A stretch of DNA of 35,050 nt, from positions 1-35,050 of the forward strand of contig JACOXP010000011.1 of NCBI GenBank assembly GCA_016182295.1. Reading direction: 5' to 3'. Positions within the stretch are counted from its first letter, which is position 1; every line of letters begins with the position of its first letter. Positions 2,857-24,560 of this stretch are shown here, in pieces. The translations under genes were made by a program, and so were the position numbers. Under the pieces are notes generated by a model. That model was not told where the DNA came from. It made no database searches and saw only the letters and a program-made list of their open reading frames with translations. This stretch comes from Candidatus Harrisonbacteria bacterium (GTDB lineage: Bacteria; Patescibacteriota; Minisyncoccia; UBA6257; WO2-44-18).

Positions 2857-3022
2857 ATAATTCTAAATTTTGAAAATAAAAATGCCTCGCAGGATTACTC
2901 CTGCGAGGCACATGAATTGTGTCCAACCGTCCAACGGTCTAGGACTCGCACACGACGAGAAAACGATCGCCCTCACCCTACTCAAACCCGTCCCAATCGA
3001 GGCTCAAGTACCGCCCGCCGCC
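2857..3022 (-). repeat. Variable-region block, copy 1 (DGR-like VR, anchor and hairpin)
   Basis: 166 nt aligned without gaps to 23190-23355. In coding direction: GGCGGC (3017-3022), then a variable stretch 2966-3016 with 15 differences from copy 2, then 27 identical nt 2939-2965 ending in a shared TAG, then a non-coding tail with about four differences and a 12-bp hairpin. Changes are at codon positions 1 and 2 except one. This matches the VR / IMH / hairpin order of diversity-generating retroelement targets. Confidence 0.8.
2883..2910 (-). terminator. 12-bp GTAA-loop hairpin (terminator and/or DGR hairpin)
   Basis: TGCCTCGCAGGA and its perfect complement enclose a 4-nt loop that reads GTAA (a GNRA tetraloop) on the minus strand, followed by TTTTTATTTT. 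It works on paper as a terminator. It also sits where DGR targets carry a required hairpin downstream of the variable region. An identical copy is at 23216-23243. Confidence 0.8.
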
Positions 3023-3211
3023 TGGGGCGGTGACGGCTTTGTGGCCGCAAACCCGCCGGAACTCTTCACGGTTCACTCCCTGCAGATTTGCGCAAAGCAA
3101 ATCCGACAACAGACCGGACTCCAGCAGGTCCTGCAACTGTTTAGCAGGCGTCTGCTTTTGCAGGATCAGGTTCAGCACCTGATTCCCTTGTGCCAAGGTT
3201 GCGTCTTTCAT
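2978..3211 (-). CDS. Short variable C-terminus protein (DGR-type target candidate)
   Basis: 77 aa from an ATG with an AAGGGAG ribosome site 5 nt upstream. The N-terminal part (QLQDLLESGLLSDLLCANL, NREEFRRVCG) is a helical module that I recall from candidate-phylum hypothetical proteins but cannot assign. The last 13 codons fall in the variable block shared with 23272-23865. Reading ends at TAG 2978-2980. Beyond it the frame stays open through FLVVCES to a second TAG at 2939-2941, exactly where the paralogue ends; the paralogue has TGG (Trp) at the first position. So the gene is either truncated by 12 residues, read through, or carries a stop produced by diversification. It lacks the long central domain of the paralogue. 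The promoter candidate is at 3286-3314. Confidence 0.7.
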   Translation of the reverse strand: MKDATLAQGNQVLNLILQKQTPAKQLQDLLESGLLSDLLCANLQGVNREEFRRVCGHKAVTAPGGGRYLSLDWDGFE

Positions 3212-19739: not shown

Positions 19740-21107
19740 TCACAATTCCTCGGCCATGCCCTCATCGGGAACTTTGGCGTCAATTCCAAATTGATCGCTT
19801 ATTTTCTTCGCCAAAATCATCGCTTGATCTTCTTCGCCCTGCACCGTAAATACTTTTTTTAGGGTCGCTTTCATCGGTTTGATCCAGTCAAGCAATTGAG
19901 GCTGGTCCGCGTGGGCGGAAAAAGAACCAATGGCCTTTATATTACAGCGCACCGGCACATCCTCGCCGTGGATTCTCACATTGAATGGCTTGCCGGATTT
20001 CTTGCCATCCAAAATCTGGCGGCCAAGCGATCCCCTCGCTTGAAAACCAACTATTAAAAGCGTGCTCTTGGGATCGGGAAGATATCTCTTTTCATGGTGA
20101 AGAATTCGGCCGGCGGTAGACATTCCGGCTCCGGCAATAATCACTTTCGGCGACGGCACATCGTTTATCGCTTTTGATTCTTCGGTGGTCATCGTCAGTT
20201 TCAAACCGGGAAAACTGAAAATCGCGTCCCCGCCGCGCAATTGGTCTTGAGCTTCTTTATTGAAATATTTTGAATGCTTTTTATAAATTTCCGTTAGTTT
20301 AATGGCGAGGGGGCTGTCTAGAAAAATAGGGATCTTCGGTATGCGGCCGCTTTCGGCAAGATTATTGATATCAAATAAAAGATGTTGGGTCCGCTCCATC
20401 GCGAAAGCCGGAATCATTAAAGTGCCTCCGTTTTTTATTGTTTCTTCGATTAAACTTTTAATAACGCCTTCTCGTTCCTTAATCGGTTCGTGAATTCTTC
20501 CGCCGTAAGTGGATTCAACAAGACAATGAGTGGCACCCTCGGTAAGGTTTTCCCGAGCGTTGATAATTGGCGCTGGCGAGTTTCCTAAATCGCCGGAAAA
20601 AATCACTTTTTTATTTTCAGCTTCGACAACAATAAAGCTCGATCCCAAAATATGACCGGCGTCGTAAAAAGTGGCGGTGAAACTTTTACCAACTTTTATT
20701 GACTTGTGATATTCAACGCCTTCCCAGCGCGCCATTAATTCTTCAATGTCTCTCACGCCATACAACGCCGGCAACCGAAAACGCTCGGCGTCTTGAAGCA
20801 GTATATGTTCCGAATCAAGAAGCATTTCTCTGGCGAAATCACGGGTCGGCGGAGTGGAATAAACCTTGCCGACAAAGCCGTCTTTCACCAACTTCGGTAA
20901 ACGGCCGGTGTGGTCTATATGGGCATGGGTTATCAAAACCGCCGATATTTCCGCCGGATTATAAGGGAAATTTTCCCAGTTGTGTTTTTCGCAAAAATTG
21001 CTCCCCTGGTGAAGACCGCAGTCAATCAAAATTTTCTCGCCACCCGATTCCAACAGATAATTGGCGCCAGTAACCATTTTGGCCCCGCCGTGAAAAGTTA
21101 GTGTCAT
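19740..21107 (-). CDS. MBL-fold beta-CASP RNA nuclease
   Basis: 455 aa. The metallo-beta-lactamase metal site is clear: HAHIDHTGRLP, AGHILGSS and FSGDLGN. The beta-CASP insert and motifs follow: STYGGR, AFAMERTQ, AGAGMSTAGRILHH, FSAHADQPQLLDWI and VQGEEDQ. Such proteins (CPSF73/YSH1-like) are zinc-dependent RNA endo/exonucleases for RNA processing. It overlaps murE by 4 nt upstream and is followed by the LOG gene. Confidence 0.92.
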   Translation of the reverse strand: MTLTFHGGAKMVTGANYLLESGGEKILIDCGLHQGSNFCEKHNWENFPYNPAEISAVLITHAHIDHTGRLPKLVKDGFVGKVYSTPPTRDFAREMLLDSEHILLQDAERFRLPALYGVRDIEELMARWEGVEYHKSIKVGKSFTATFYDAGHILGSSFIVVEAENKKVIFSGDLGNSPAPIINARENLTEGATHCLVESTYGGRIHEPIKEREGVIKSLIEETIKNGGTLMIPAFAMERTQHLLFDINNLAESGRIPKIPIFLDSPLAIKLTEIYKKHSKYFNKEAQDQLRGGDAIFSFPGLKLTMTTEESKAINDVPSPKVIIAGAGMSTAGRILHHEKRYLPDPKSTLLIVGFQARGSLGRQILDGKKSGKPFNVRIHGEDVPVRCNIKAIGSFSAHADQPQLLDWIKPMKATLKKVFTVQGEEDQAMILAKKISDQFGIDAKVPDEGMAEEL

Positions 21108-22306
21108 TTTCTAAGGATATCACGAACAACTTCCGCTTCGTTCCAGGAAATGGTCTTGCCGTGGGCTATATGAATAGAGGTTTCACTGCCCTTTCCGGTG
21201 AGAATTGCCGTATCACCCGGTTTGGCGGAATCAAGAGCCTGGCGAATTGCTTCTTTGCGATCTAAAACTTTAAAAACTTTCGGCCCCGGCAAAATTCCCG
21301 AAGCGATTTCATCTAGAATGGCGGTGGGGTTTTCGTCATAGGGATCCTCGTCGGTCAAAAAAATAAGTTTGCAATATCGTGAAGCAACCTTGCCCATCAC
21401 CGGACGCTTCCATTTATCCCTTCCTCCTCCCGCCGCTCCCAAAACACAAATTAATTTTTTACCGCTATCCCGCGGGGTGGCGGCCAGGGATTTATAAATT
21501 TGCTCGAGCGAATCCGGAGTATGAGCGTAATCTACCACCACCCGAAATGGCTCTGGTTGAATCGTTTCCATTCTACCCGGCACACCTTTGAAAAAAGCCA
21601 GCGCTTGCTTGATAACGCTCCAAGAAATCCCCTGCGATTTGGCAAAGGCAGTCGCGGCGGCGGCGTTTTCCAGATTAAAATCGCTCGAAAGCCAATCGCC
21701 GATTGATTCGCTTCCTTTGTTTAATTCGTTTTCGATAAATTTTTCGCGGCTAAAAAAAACAACTTCGCCAGAACCGCTTGCTTCGGCAAAATAGCGGGCG
21801 TTTTCGTCGGCTTCGTTTATAAAGAAAAGTTTGCGTCGATGGGTGGCAACGTATTCAAAAAAGCTCAATTTGGCGTTGCGGTATTTTTCGAAGGAGCCGT
21901 GGGATTCGATATGCTCCGGGTGAAGATTTAAAAATATCGCCGCGTCCCAATCAATAAATTTATGGCGATACTGGCCAAAACCCTGTGAGGTTGCCTCAAT
22001 AATGGCGTATTCACATTTTTTATTTACGGCTTTTCTCAAAAAACTTTGGAGCGCGAGGCGGCCCGGCATGGTATTGCCGGTCGTGTTTTTTTGATTTTCC
22101 TCGTCGATTTTAAACCGAATCGAAGACGTAAGAGCTGTTTTCTTTCCCGCTTTTTCCAAAATGGCGTTAATCAATTCCACTACCGTGGATTTTCCTTTTG
22201 TTCCCGTAATTCCAATCACAAAAATTTTCCGGGAGGGGTTTCCGTAAATAACATTACCTAAAAATGCGAGGCACCAATGATAAATACTTTTTAGAAAGGA
22301 AATCAT
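21104..22306 (-). CDS. murE: MurE-like Mur ligase
   Basis: 400 aa. Central ATPase domain with GITGTKGKSTVVELINAILE (P-loop), TGNTMPGRLALQSFLRKAV, IIEATSQGFGQYR, FLNLHPEHIESHGSFEKYRN (carbamylated-Lys context), NAAAATAFAKSQG and FKGVPGRME; the C-terminal domain has VVDYAHTPDSLEQIYKSL, GAAGGGRDKWKRPVMGK, TDEDPYDENP and GKGSETSIHI. It adds the third residue to UDP-MurNAc-dipeptide in wall synthesis. The N-terminal UDP-binding domain of about 90 residues is missing, and the DNPR motif for diaminopimelate is EDPY, so substrate or acceptor may differ. Overlaps the nuclease gene by ATGA. Confidence 0.87.
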   Translation of the reverse strand: MISFLKSIYHWCLAFLGNVIYGNPSRKIFVIGITGTKGKSTVVELINAILEKAGKKTALTSSIRFKIDEENQKNTTGNTMPGRLALQSFLRKAVNKKCEYAIIEATSQGFGQYRHKFIDWDAAIFLNLHPEHIESHGSFEKYRNAKLSFFEYVATHRRKLFFINEADENARYFAEASGSGEVVFFSREKFIENELNKGSESIGDWLSSDFNLENAAAATAFAKSQGISWSVIKQALAFFKGVPGRMETIQPEPFRVVVDYAHTPDSLEQIYKSLAATPRDSGKKLICVLGAAGGGRDKWKRPVMGKVASRYCKLIFLTDEDPYDENPTAILDEIASGILPGPKVFKVLDRKEAIRQALDSAKPGDTAILTGKGSETSIHIAHGKTISWNEAEVVRDILRK

Positions 22307-22645: not shown

Positions 22646-23062
22646 CTACCAAGAGATTGTGATTTCGGACACAAACCGCCTTGTGTCAATTTTGCGTTTC
22701 TTTTCGTATTCTTCCCATCCTTCAATGTCATGTCTGCCAGGCAATGTTTCGCCAAGGGGCATGTCATAAATTGCGCACATCTTGAGGCCAACCTTAAAAC
22801 CTTCTTTTTCAAGCTCTTGAAAAAGAATGGTGGCAGTATCCTGAGATAATTCGCCAGCGCCTAATCGTACGGCATCAATACGGACTGTTCTTCGTCCTTC
22901 TTGGGAAGCTCTTTCCACTTCATACGAAATCTTTCTCTTAATTGGCGCGACTTCACGACTAAGTTCTTTTACTAAAGAAGCTCGTCTTTTGTTTTTCGCG
23001 TTTTCATTTTTCGCAGTAGCTTTCTTGGCTTGGTCACGAAACTTCTTGGCCTTATTCGTCAT
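22646..23062 (-). CDS. Basic protein of unknown function
   Basis: 138 aa. The Lys/Arg-rich N-terminal half (MTNKAKKFRDQAKKATAKNE, AKNKRRASLVKEL) suggests nucleic-acid binding; the second half is mixed alpha/beta (RTVRIDAVRLGAGELSQDTA, TILFQELEKEGFKVG, RRFVSEITISW). I recognise no family. Expression signals are unusually strong: GGAGG 5 nt before the start and a consensus TTGACA-17-TATAAT promoter at 23090-23118 whose -35 overlaps a duplicated ruvA stop codon. Confidence 0.75.
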   Translation of the reverse strand: MTNKAKKFRDQAKKATAKNENAKNKRRASLVKELSREVAPIKRKISYEVERASQEGRRTVRIDAVRLGAGELSQDTATILFQELEKEGFKVGLKMCAIYDMPLGETLPGRHDIEGWEEYEKKRKIDTRRFVSEITISW

Positions 23063-23089: not shown

Positions 23090-23118
23090 ATTATAATACA
23101 AGCATATACCAATGTCAA
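23090..23118 (-). promoter_or_regulatory. Consensus sigma70 promoter
   Basis: Minus strand TTGACA (23113-23118), 17-nt spacer, TATAAT (23090-23095). Both hexamers are perfect. The -35 is part of the 55-bp direct repeat shared with the end of ruvA. Confidence 0.88.
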
Positions 23119-23167
23119 GCTTTAGCTTTTTTAAGAGCCTCTTTCAAACGTTCCTTGAATCCTTCTA
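23113..23167 (-). repeat. Duplicated 3' end of ruvA (direct repeat A)
   Basis: 55 nt, 54 identical to 23977-24031. It encodes the last residues of RuvA (GFKERLKEALKKAKA) and its TGA. Together the two copies flank an 809-bp segment holding the variable-protein gene, as a direct-repeat pair left by insertion or tandem duplication would. Confidence 0.9.
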
Positions 23168-23189
23168 ATTCTGTGTCGTCATTTTTATA

Positions 23190-23355
23190 ATAATTCTAAC
23201 TTTTGAAAATAAAAATGCCTCGCAGGATTACTCCTGCGAGGCATATGAATTGTGTCCAACCGTCTAACAGTCTAGGACTCGCACACGACGAGAAAACGAC
23301 AGTCCCCATGCCAGTCAAACCCGCACCAATAGAGGCTCGAGTCCCACTCGCCGCC
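23190..23355 (-). repeat. Variable-region block, copy 2 (DGR-like VR, anchor and hairpin)
   Basis: Gap-free partner of 2857-3022. Variable stretch 23299-23349, identical anchor 23272-23298, then the tail with hairpin 23216-23243. In this copy the second small hairpin after the stop keeps its stem by a U-G pair where copy 1 has C-G. Confidence 0.8.
23216..23243 (-). terminator. 12-bp GTAA-loop hairpin, second copy
   Basis: Identical to 2883-2910, followed on the minus strand by TTTTTATTTT. It lies 28 nt beyond the stop codon of the variable-protein gene. Confidence 0.8.
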
Positions 23356-23865
23356 AACGAGCCAGGCGCAAGGAACGCCACCCCAGAAGCCAAGAAGTAC
23401 GATGGGGTACTTTCTCAGCTCACCGGGGTTGGCCGCTATGAAAGCGCGAAATTCCGGCTGGGTGGCAGGGCGTTCCCCGGCTTTCTTAAATTCGGAGATG
23501 GCGTCCTCGGAGCTAATCCAACGATTGAAATGGCGAAGCTTCATGTTGAGCTCGACCCTGTCGCCTCGCTTGTCACTCGGGAAATGCTTCTCGTTGATGT
23601 CATCGTTCTTCCGGTCATACTTCCCGGCGGAGATCATCTCTGCCCGGGATTTGGAGTAATCCACGACTACCTTGAAGAGGTTGCCGACGACTTTCTTTCC
23701 GTCCATCATCAGAGCCCCGATCTTCTTTCGAAGCTCGGGATCGGTCTCGAGGCGGCGAAGATCCTCATCGGACCCGCCTGCATCCGAAACCGCATTGGAG
23801 AGGGCCTTGAAGACCCTCGCGCACACATCGAACGCCGAAACGAACCGACTCTTTTTCTGAGCCAT
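23272..23865 (-). CDS. Variable C-terminus protein (DGR-type target candidate)
   Basis: 197 aa. A start with GGAGG 7 nt upstream is well supported. The N-terminal half is helical (FDVCARVFKALSNAVSDAGG, RKKIGALMMDGKKVVGNLFK). Then VVDYSKSRAEMISAGKYDRK, NDDINEKHFP, VELNMKLRHFNRWISSEDAI and ERPATQPEFRAFIAANPGEL lead into KYPIVLLG, a module I recall as common and multicopy in candidate-phylum genomes. The C-terminus, rich in Trp, Gly, Asp and Cys (GGEWDSSLYWCGFDWHGDCR, FLVVCES), resembles the end of a C-type-lectin-fold DGR target. Its last 27 codons are the DGR-like block shared with 2978-3211. The gene is bracketed by 55-bp direct repeats of the ruvA end. The ligand is unknown. Confidence 0.8.
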   Translation of the reverse strand: MAQKKSRFVSAFDVCARVFKALSNAVSDAGGSDEDLRRLETDPELRKKIGALMMDGKKVVGNLFKVVVDYSKSRAEMISAGKYDRKNDDINEKHFPSDKRGDRVELNMKLRHFNRWISSEDAISEFKKAGERPATQPEFRAFIAANPGELRKYPIVLLGFWGGVPCAWLVGGEWDSSLYWCGFDWHGDCRFLVVCES

Positions 23866-23976: not shown

Positions 23977-24031
23977 TGTCAGGCTTTAGCTTTTTTAAGA
24001 GCCTCTTTCAAACGTTCCTTGAATCCTTCTA
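23977..24031 (-). repeat. 3' end of ruvA (direct repeat B)
   Basis: The copy belonging to intact ruvA. The single mismatch to repeat A turns the promoter-like TTGACA of A into CTGACA; with TAGGAT 18 nt downstream this could still drive the variable-protein gene. Confidence 0.9.
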
Positions 24032-24560
24032 TTTTTGGATCAATTCTAGAAATGGCGTTTTTGGCTTGCTGTTTGGTGTAACCGAGCGAAACCAAAGTTT
24101 CTTCAAGTTCCAAATCCGATTCCATTAAGTTGAGAGTGGTTTTGGGGGACGAACCGGAGGTCAGCTTACCCTTAAGATCAATGACTACTCGCTCGGCCGT
24201 TTTCCTCCCCACGCCTCCGGCCCTGGTCAGCAAGTCCACCTTCCCTTCATTAATAGCGACAACCAACTGATCTATTGGAGCGACATTGAGAATAGCCATC
24301 GCCGTGCGGGGCCCGATGCCGCTGACCGTGTTCAATCTTTCAAAAAGATACAGCTCTCCTTCAGTCATGAAACCATAAAGCTCAAACGGCTCGTTTTCCC
24401 TATTATAGAGCGAACAGAAAAGTTTGATATTGGAGCCGATTTGCGCTAAACTTTGGGCGGCTCGCTGGGACAACAATACCTTAAAACCGATCCCCGCCGA
24501 CTCCAAAACAATAAAACCCTCTTTTTTGCCCGCTAATTTGCCAGAAAGCGAATAAATCAT
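23979..24560 (-). CDS. ruvA: Holliday junction complex subunit RuvA
   Basis: 193 aa, normal length. MIYSLSGKLAGKKEGFIVLE starts the OB-fold domain; YGFMTEGELYLFERLNTVSG and GIGPRTAMAILN plus GGVGRKTAERVVIDLKGKL are the two helix-hairpin-helix motifs that hold the junction; the C-terminal domain III (LEETLVSLGYTKQQAKNAIS) binds RuvB, encoded at 33362. TATAAT 8 nt ahead of the ATG suggests a leaderless transcript, divergent from uvrB. Its last 55 nt are duplicated downstream. Confidence 0.96.
   Translation of the reverse strand: MIYSLSGKLAGKKEGFIVLESAGIGFKVLLSQRAAQSLAQIGSNIKLFCSLYNRENEPFELYGFMTEGELYLFERLNTVSGIGPRTAMAILNVAPIDQLVVAINEGKVDLLTRAGGVGRKTAERVVIDLKGKLTSGSSPKTTLNLMESDLELEETLVSLGYTKQQAKNAISRIDPKIEGFKERLKEALKKAKA

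Follow-up and report, generated by a model that had tools for sequence, protein, structure and literature searches.

A probably orphaned DGR target gene, its variable region frozen or in decay, in the ruvA-murE interval of a Candidatus Harrisonbacteria genome

A 197-amino-acid open reading frame between ruvA and a Mur-ligase-like gene (here called murE) in Candidatus Harrisonbacteria is probably an orphaned target of a diversity-generating retroelement (DGR), and its variable region (VR) is probably frozen or decaying. The gene is found in a 35,050-nucleotide stretch of contig JACOXP010000011.1, termed here the window (Table 1). It belongs to an unannotated multicopy protein family that is tied to DGRs by direct comparisons of template repeat (TR) and VR in related genomes. 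Neither a reverse transcriptase (RT) nor a TR was detected in the assembly of this genome, which is 91% complete, and an RT remnant persists in it.

Table 1. Positions of the target genes, slot features and RT remnant (window coordinates unless a contig is named)
Feature	Position	Strand	Remarks
DGR target (variable protein), 197 aa	23272-23865	minus	predicted helical N-terminus and C-terminal C-type-lectin-like domain, ~residues 61-197
Variable region (VR), 19 codons 5′ of anchor	23299-23355	minus	15/57 positions unlike second copy
Fixed 3′ anchor RFLVVCES and stop	23272-23298	minus	same in both window copies
Terminator-like hairpin: 13-bp stem, 4-nt loop, T run	23215-23244	minus	~27 bp past target stop
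ruvA	23979-24560	minus	upstream border of slot
Mur-ligase-like gene (murE)	21104-22306	minus	downstream border of slot
138-aa ORF, function unassigned	22646-23062	minus	between target and murE
61-nt copy of ruvA 3′ end, 95%	23113-23173	unstranded	downstream of target
ruvA 3′ end, partner copy of 61-nt direct repeat	23977-24037	unstranded	
Broken second target: N-terminus of the family type, no lectin core (deletion), in-frame TAG in tail	2939-3211	minus	ORF end 2978
VR of broken second target	2966-3022	minus	tail match to window target
RT C-terminal remnant, ~22 residues, including SYLGLLKHGNT	C4:83426-83491		directly upstream of rpe

The reading frame described in a preliminary description of this DNA was verified at 23272-23865 on the minus strand; its C-terminus is GGEWDSSLYWCGFDWHGDCRFLVVCES, and the motifs ISSEDAI, ERPATQPEF and YPIVLLG are all present. 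The tail occurs again at 2862-3022 (minus strand) with 88% DNA identity and an E value of 2e-54, so that the likeness is not due to chance. In the 19 codons preceding the RFLVVCES anchor, the two copies differ at 15 of the 57 positions, and 14 of these differences affect codon position 1 or 2. Past the VR just 3 of 90 nt differ (anchor and 3′ flank). Read from the two sequences, this pattern is that of a hypervariable segment beside a fixed anchor and is far from chance.

The hairpin 3′ of the target might represent a DGR target-site hairpin, by analogy with the spacing in the DGR of the Bordetella phage BPP-1 (Mtd; PMC3240598). In both cases the 3′ part of the VR is fixed and a hairpin is found downstream. 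Unlike BPP-1, the window gene has no RT or TR, and its hairpin is terminator-shaped with a loop, GTAA, that does not fit GRNA; any role in homing is putative.

Searches of Pfam, NCBIfam and PHROGs with the 197-amino-acid protein returned no match, and no relative was found in phage records. A profile search of PDB sequences gave weak matches only, the best to an OspC3 fragment (E 0.015) and another to a capsid protein; neither was taken for a relative. Rfam matches were below threshold and were judged to be chance.

In AlphaFold2 models of the window protein (pLDDT 79.7) and of the relative L066 (pLDDT 85.7), the N-terminus is helical and the C-terminal domain is of mixed alpha/beta type. Foldseek returned weak matches to both models, none with E <0.001. 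The top rows of the VIA-align structural alignment are C-type-lectin or link domains nearly throughout, the best being Bdellovibrio Bd2740 (Z 7.7 and 8.4). Although Z values of about 8 are modest, the uniformity of these rows supports a predicted C-type-lectin-like fold with the VR at its C-terminus, as the preliminary description had proposed; no DGR variable protein appears among the rows shown, which does not speak against such a relation. The C-type-lectin fold is reported for DGR targets generally (Roux et al., 2021; PMC8144416). In the TRs of relatives, fixed codons for L and W alternate with mutable ones, and this alternation of variable and hydrophobic codons argues for variable residues being exposed at the surface. 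The protein would have bound a variable ligand.

Family members were located in seven of the eight genomes of the same Patescibacteria family and in 68 of the 244 genomes of the order, which bears out the suggestion of a multicopy family in candidate-phylum genomes. Records matched in a collection scan with a four-row alignment carry titles that point to Patescibacteria. The cassette in the relative G004 carries target, TR, bAvd and RT within 2.4 kb, with the bAvd gene (PF22296, score over the cut-off) on the opposite strand. Nine TR/VR pairs were found in other genomes of the order, two of them from divergent members (G005 C17 and G007). These pairs contain 85 mismatches in total; 84 fall on TR adenines, and codon position 3 is never affected. 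A tenth pair, G005 C1, has 18 of 20 mismatches at TR adenines over 120 nt. RTs are present in 43 of 68 target-bearing genomes compared with 64 of 176 target-free genomes of the order (odds ratio 3.0, p 1.8e-4, relatedness not corrected). The DGR cassettes and the adenine-specific differences identify the family as DGR targets, and the co-occurrence with RT agrees. Variability in relatives is confined to particular codons on a fixed backbone rather than spread over the whole protein, as had been expected of a DGR-type target. It is very improbable that the window gene is no DGR product but belongs to an ordinary multicopy family of surface proteins whose variation stems from recombination or positive selection: no TR was found in this genome and the adenine test is weak here, but the TR/VR pairs of the same family in several other genomes of the order disfavour such an origin, as does the RT remnant in this genome.

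Several further features of the family were observed. G004 has a second DGR on its own contig C4 (L027 2877-4168), in which the target is of another type and is accompanied by a separate TR and a bAvd gene; an RT is nearby at 1376-2509. Two other targets in that genome (L026 3112-3789 and L027 5059-5745) have the scaffold and the 3′ flank in common, and most of their differences are in tail codons of the NNC/NNT type; a TR of their own was not found in the loci fetched. The genome G019 (L047, L048, L066, L069 and L071) has 11 family matches and three RTs. Two IMG/VR contigs carry family members with a C-terminal extension past the anchor (L105 2968-3474 and L106 2923-3483). Motifs of the CTTGG/TTGGACC type occur in the 80 nt past the stop of targets (e.g. 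L066, L069 and L071), 51 times compared with 6.5 expected from shuffles and in 22 of 31 family members; they are perhaps part of the target site.

Neither RT nor TR was detected in the Harrisonbacteria assembly. An RVT_1 profile search of the 91% complete genome gave zero matches even at E 10, a degenerate TR pattern with up to three mismatches returned only the three VR tails, the loci scanned yielded no TR/VR pair, and tblastn of the slots compared found no Avd. With the G004 RT as query, a short match appears on contig C4; the RT C-terminus as query finds the same match, 64% over 22 residues (E 3e-4). The motif SYLGLLKHGNT in this remnant is the same as that of the G007 RT in 11 of 11 residues. 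Immediately ahead of the remnant is a reading frame, and between the two is a tail that resembles a second target type in another frame. At the corresponding rpe site, G004 and G005 carry an intact RT, and G001 has a target without RT. By these comparisons the C4 site is a broken target with an RT remnant, probably the scar of a lost DGR.

The ruvA-murE slot is found in several states. It is empty in five relatives, where ruvA directly adjoins murE. In G005, ruvA, target, TR and an incomplete avd are at the end of one contig, and a second contig starts in avd and carries RT and murE; since inspection shows an overlap of about 20 nt between the two ends, the slot probably holds an intact DGR. 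In G007, murE is directly adjoined by a C-terminal RT remnant. In the present genome, the slot contains the window target, the 61-nt ruvA repeat and the 138-amino-acid ORF, the last seen in this genome only among the slots compared. The downstream copy of the repeat overlaps a perfect TTGACA-17-TATAAT promoter-like site before this ORF. Flanking direct repeats do not characterise targets in general, as among 35 targets only the window gene has them. The 61-nt repeat might be an insertion footprint. It suggests a separate insertion of the window target, which a tree places apart from the G005 target; the shared slot may therefore not mean shared ancestry of the two targets.

The second tail in the window had been taken for the end of a different, shorter N-terminal body, and two bodies on one variable tail for the sign of a multi-target system. 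The shorter body is not borne out, and a working multi-target DGR is not supported here. The short ORF consists of 77 amino acids (2978-3211), with a TAG inside the VR at the fifth codon before the anchor. Its N-terminus is 51% identical over 76 amino acids to that of the full-length, 207-amino-acid relative L074, which indicates that the lectin core has been deleted. On this alignment the short copy is a deleted family member with a stop in its VR, not a second architecture or a working target; in addition, RT and TR were not found in the assembly, and both window tails are altered at codons that DGRs leave unmutated. Contig C10 carries a third, weaker tail copy (80% identity across 59 nt, E 8e-9) in a family member with its reading frame kept. 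A fourth gene, on C11, has part of the scaffold common to the family and no variable tail.

Codons that are fixed in the TRs of relatives (R, L and W) are changed in one or other of the window tails. Differences at non-DGR positions make up 4 of 15 between the window tails versus 1 of 85 in the pairs of relatives (p 0.0016), the former being a comparison of VR with VR and the latter of TR with VR. The conserved SVWR...GR stretch is deleted from the window protein. Departure from the framework is greater in members from RT-less genomes (p 0.013 by protein and 0.021 by genome, relatedness not corrected), and the window protein and its C10 paralogue, with divergent fractions of 0.34 and 0.29, are among the most divergent members tested. 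An earlier framework test (p 9e-4) was discarded as biased towards RT-positive references, the balanced version being weaker. The framework-codon changes and the divergence of RT-less members suggest that DGR writing into the window VR has stopped.

The following course of events is proposed. In relatives, the RT would copy the nearby TR with random bases at adenines, and the mutated copy would overwrite the end of the lectin domain, such that binding-surface residues change and the backbone and 3′ anchor stay fixed. In the present genome, RT, Avd and TR would have been lost, with a scar remaining beside rpe on C4. The window VR, once written by a DGR, would then be a frozen product of past diversification that is now gathering ordinary point mutations as a consequence of this loss. 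Several observations do not sit easily with an orphaned target. The incompleteness of the genome leaves room for an unassembled RT/TR locus, and the gene in the window has kept an intact ORF, which may mean that it is still under selection. The variable sites of the window match the adenine-rich TR sites of relatives weakly (p 0.03 overall and 0.36 for codon positions 1 and 2 only), and the tree and the 61-nt repeat set the gene apart from the G005 target.

It is unlikely that, after loss of the RT, selection has maintained a single lectin variant as a binding protein of fixed sequence, even though the 197-amino-acid ORF is open, the target-only state is common (RT is missing from 12 of 33 near-complete genomes that have a strong target) and the C11 paralogue exists without a variable tail. 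The framework divergence of the window protein and its C10 paralogue, the broken sister copy and the deletion of a conserved stretch from the window protein all speak against a maintained function. It is also improbable that the DGR is still active, with RT and TR located in the ~9% of the genome that the assembly lacks, or else in other cells of the population, and the window gene diversified in trans. The incomplete assembly, the open reading frame and the retained anchor and hairpin would fit such activity, for which there is a precedent in Thiohalocapsa PB-PSB1, where remote or incomplete loci are diversified in trans or in variant cells (PMC10907252). But the ruvA-murE and rpe sites are both fully assembled, neither with an intact RT, an RT remnant exists in the genome, and the framework-codon changes seen in both window tails would tend to disappear if homing from a TR were still going on. 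Thiohalocapsa likewise has targets with no RT close by; its diversity is explained by trans activity or by variant cells, whereas here a second RT/TR was not found.

An orphaned target also compares with other known systems. The clade 2 DGRs of Patescibacteria/CPR (Roux et al., 2021; PMC8144416) similarly have cell-encoded Patescibacteria targets with C-type-lectin-type VRs and no recognised conserved domain. Unlike these, the present genome has no RT or TR in its assembly, and the likeness is one of targets. VR-bearing fragments without RT are found in DUSEL4 nanoarchaea, where they have been proposed to be fossils or remote targets (Paul et al., 2015; PMC4372165). In contrast to DUSEL4, the host here is a bacterium, and the RT 3′ remnant together with the comparison of intact, remnant and empty slots favours a fossil. 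RT-less DGR fragments of this kind were already known from nanoarchaea, and the Harrisonbacteria gene adds a bacterial one in which an RT remnant is visible. RT-anchored surveys miss RT-less target genes; Roux et al. (PMC8144416) say of their own approach that remote targets would escape it.

It is conceivable, if doubtful, that Patescibacteria repeatedly lose the DGR RT but retain individual lectin variants, then fixed in sequence, that function as binding proteins. If so, each DGR would represent a single bout of protein engineering, and its products would persist after the machinery is gone. Within one bacterial family, a single genomic slot displays intact, target-only, RT-remnant and empty states, and these states open DGR loss and the fate of DGR products to study.
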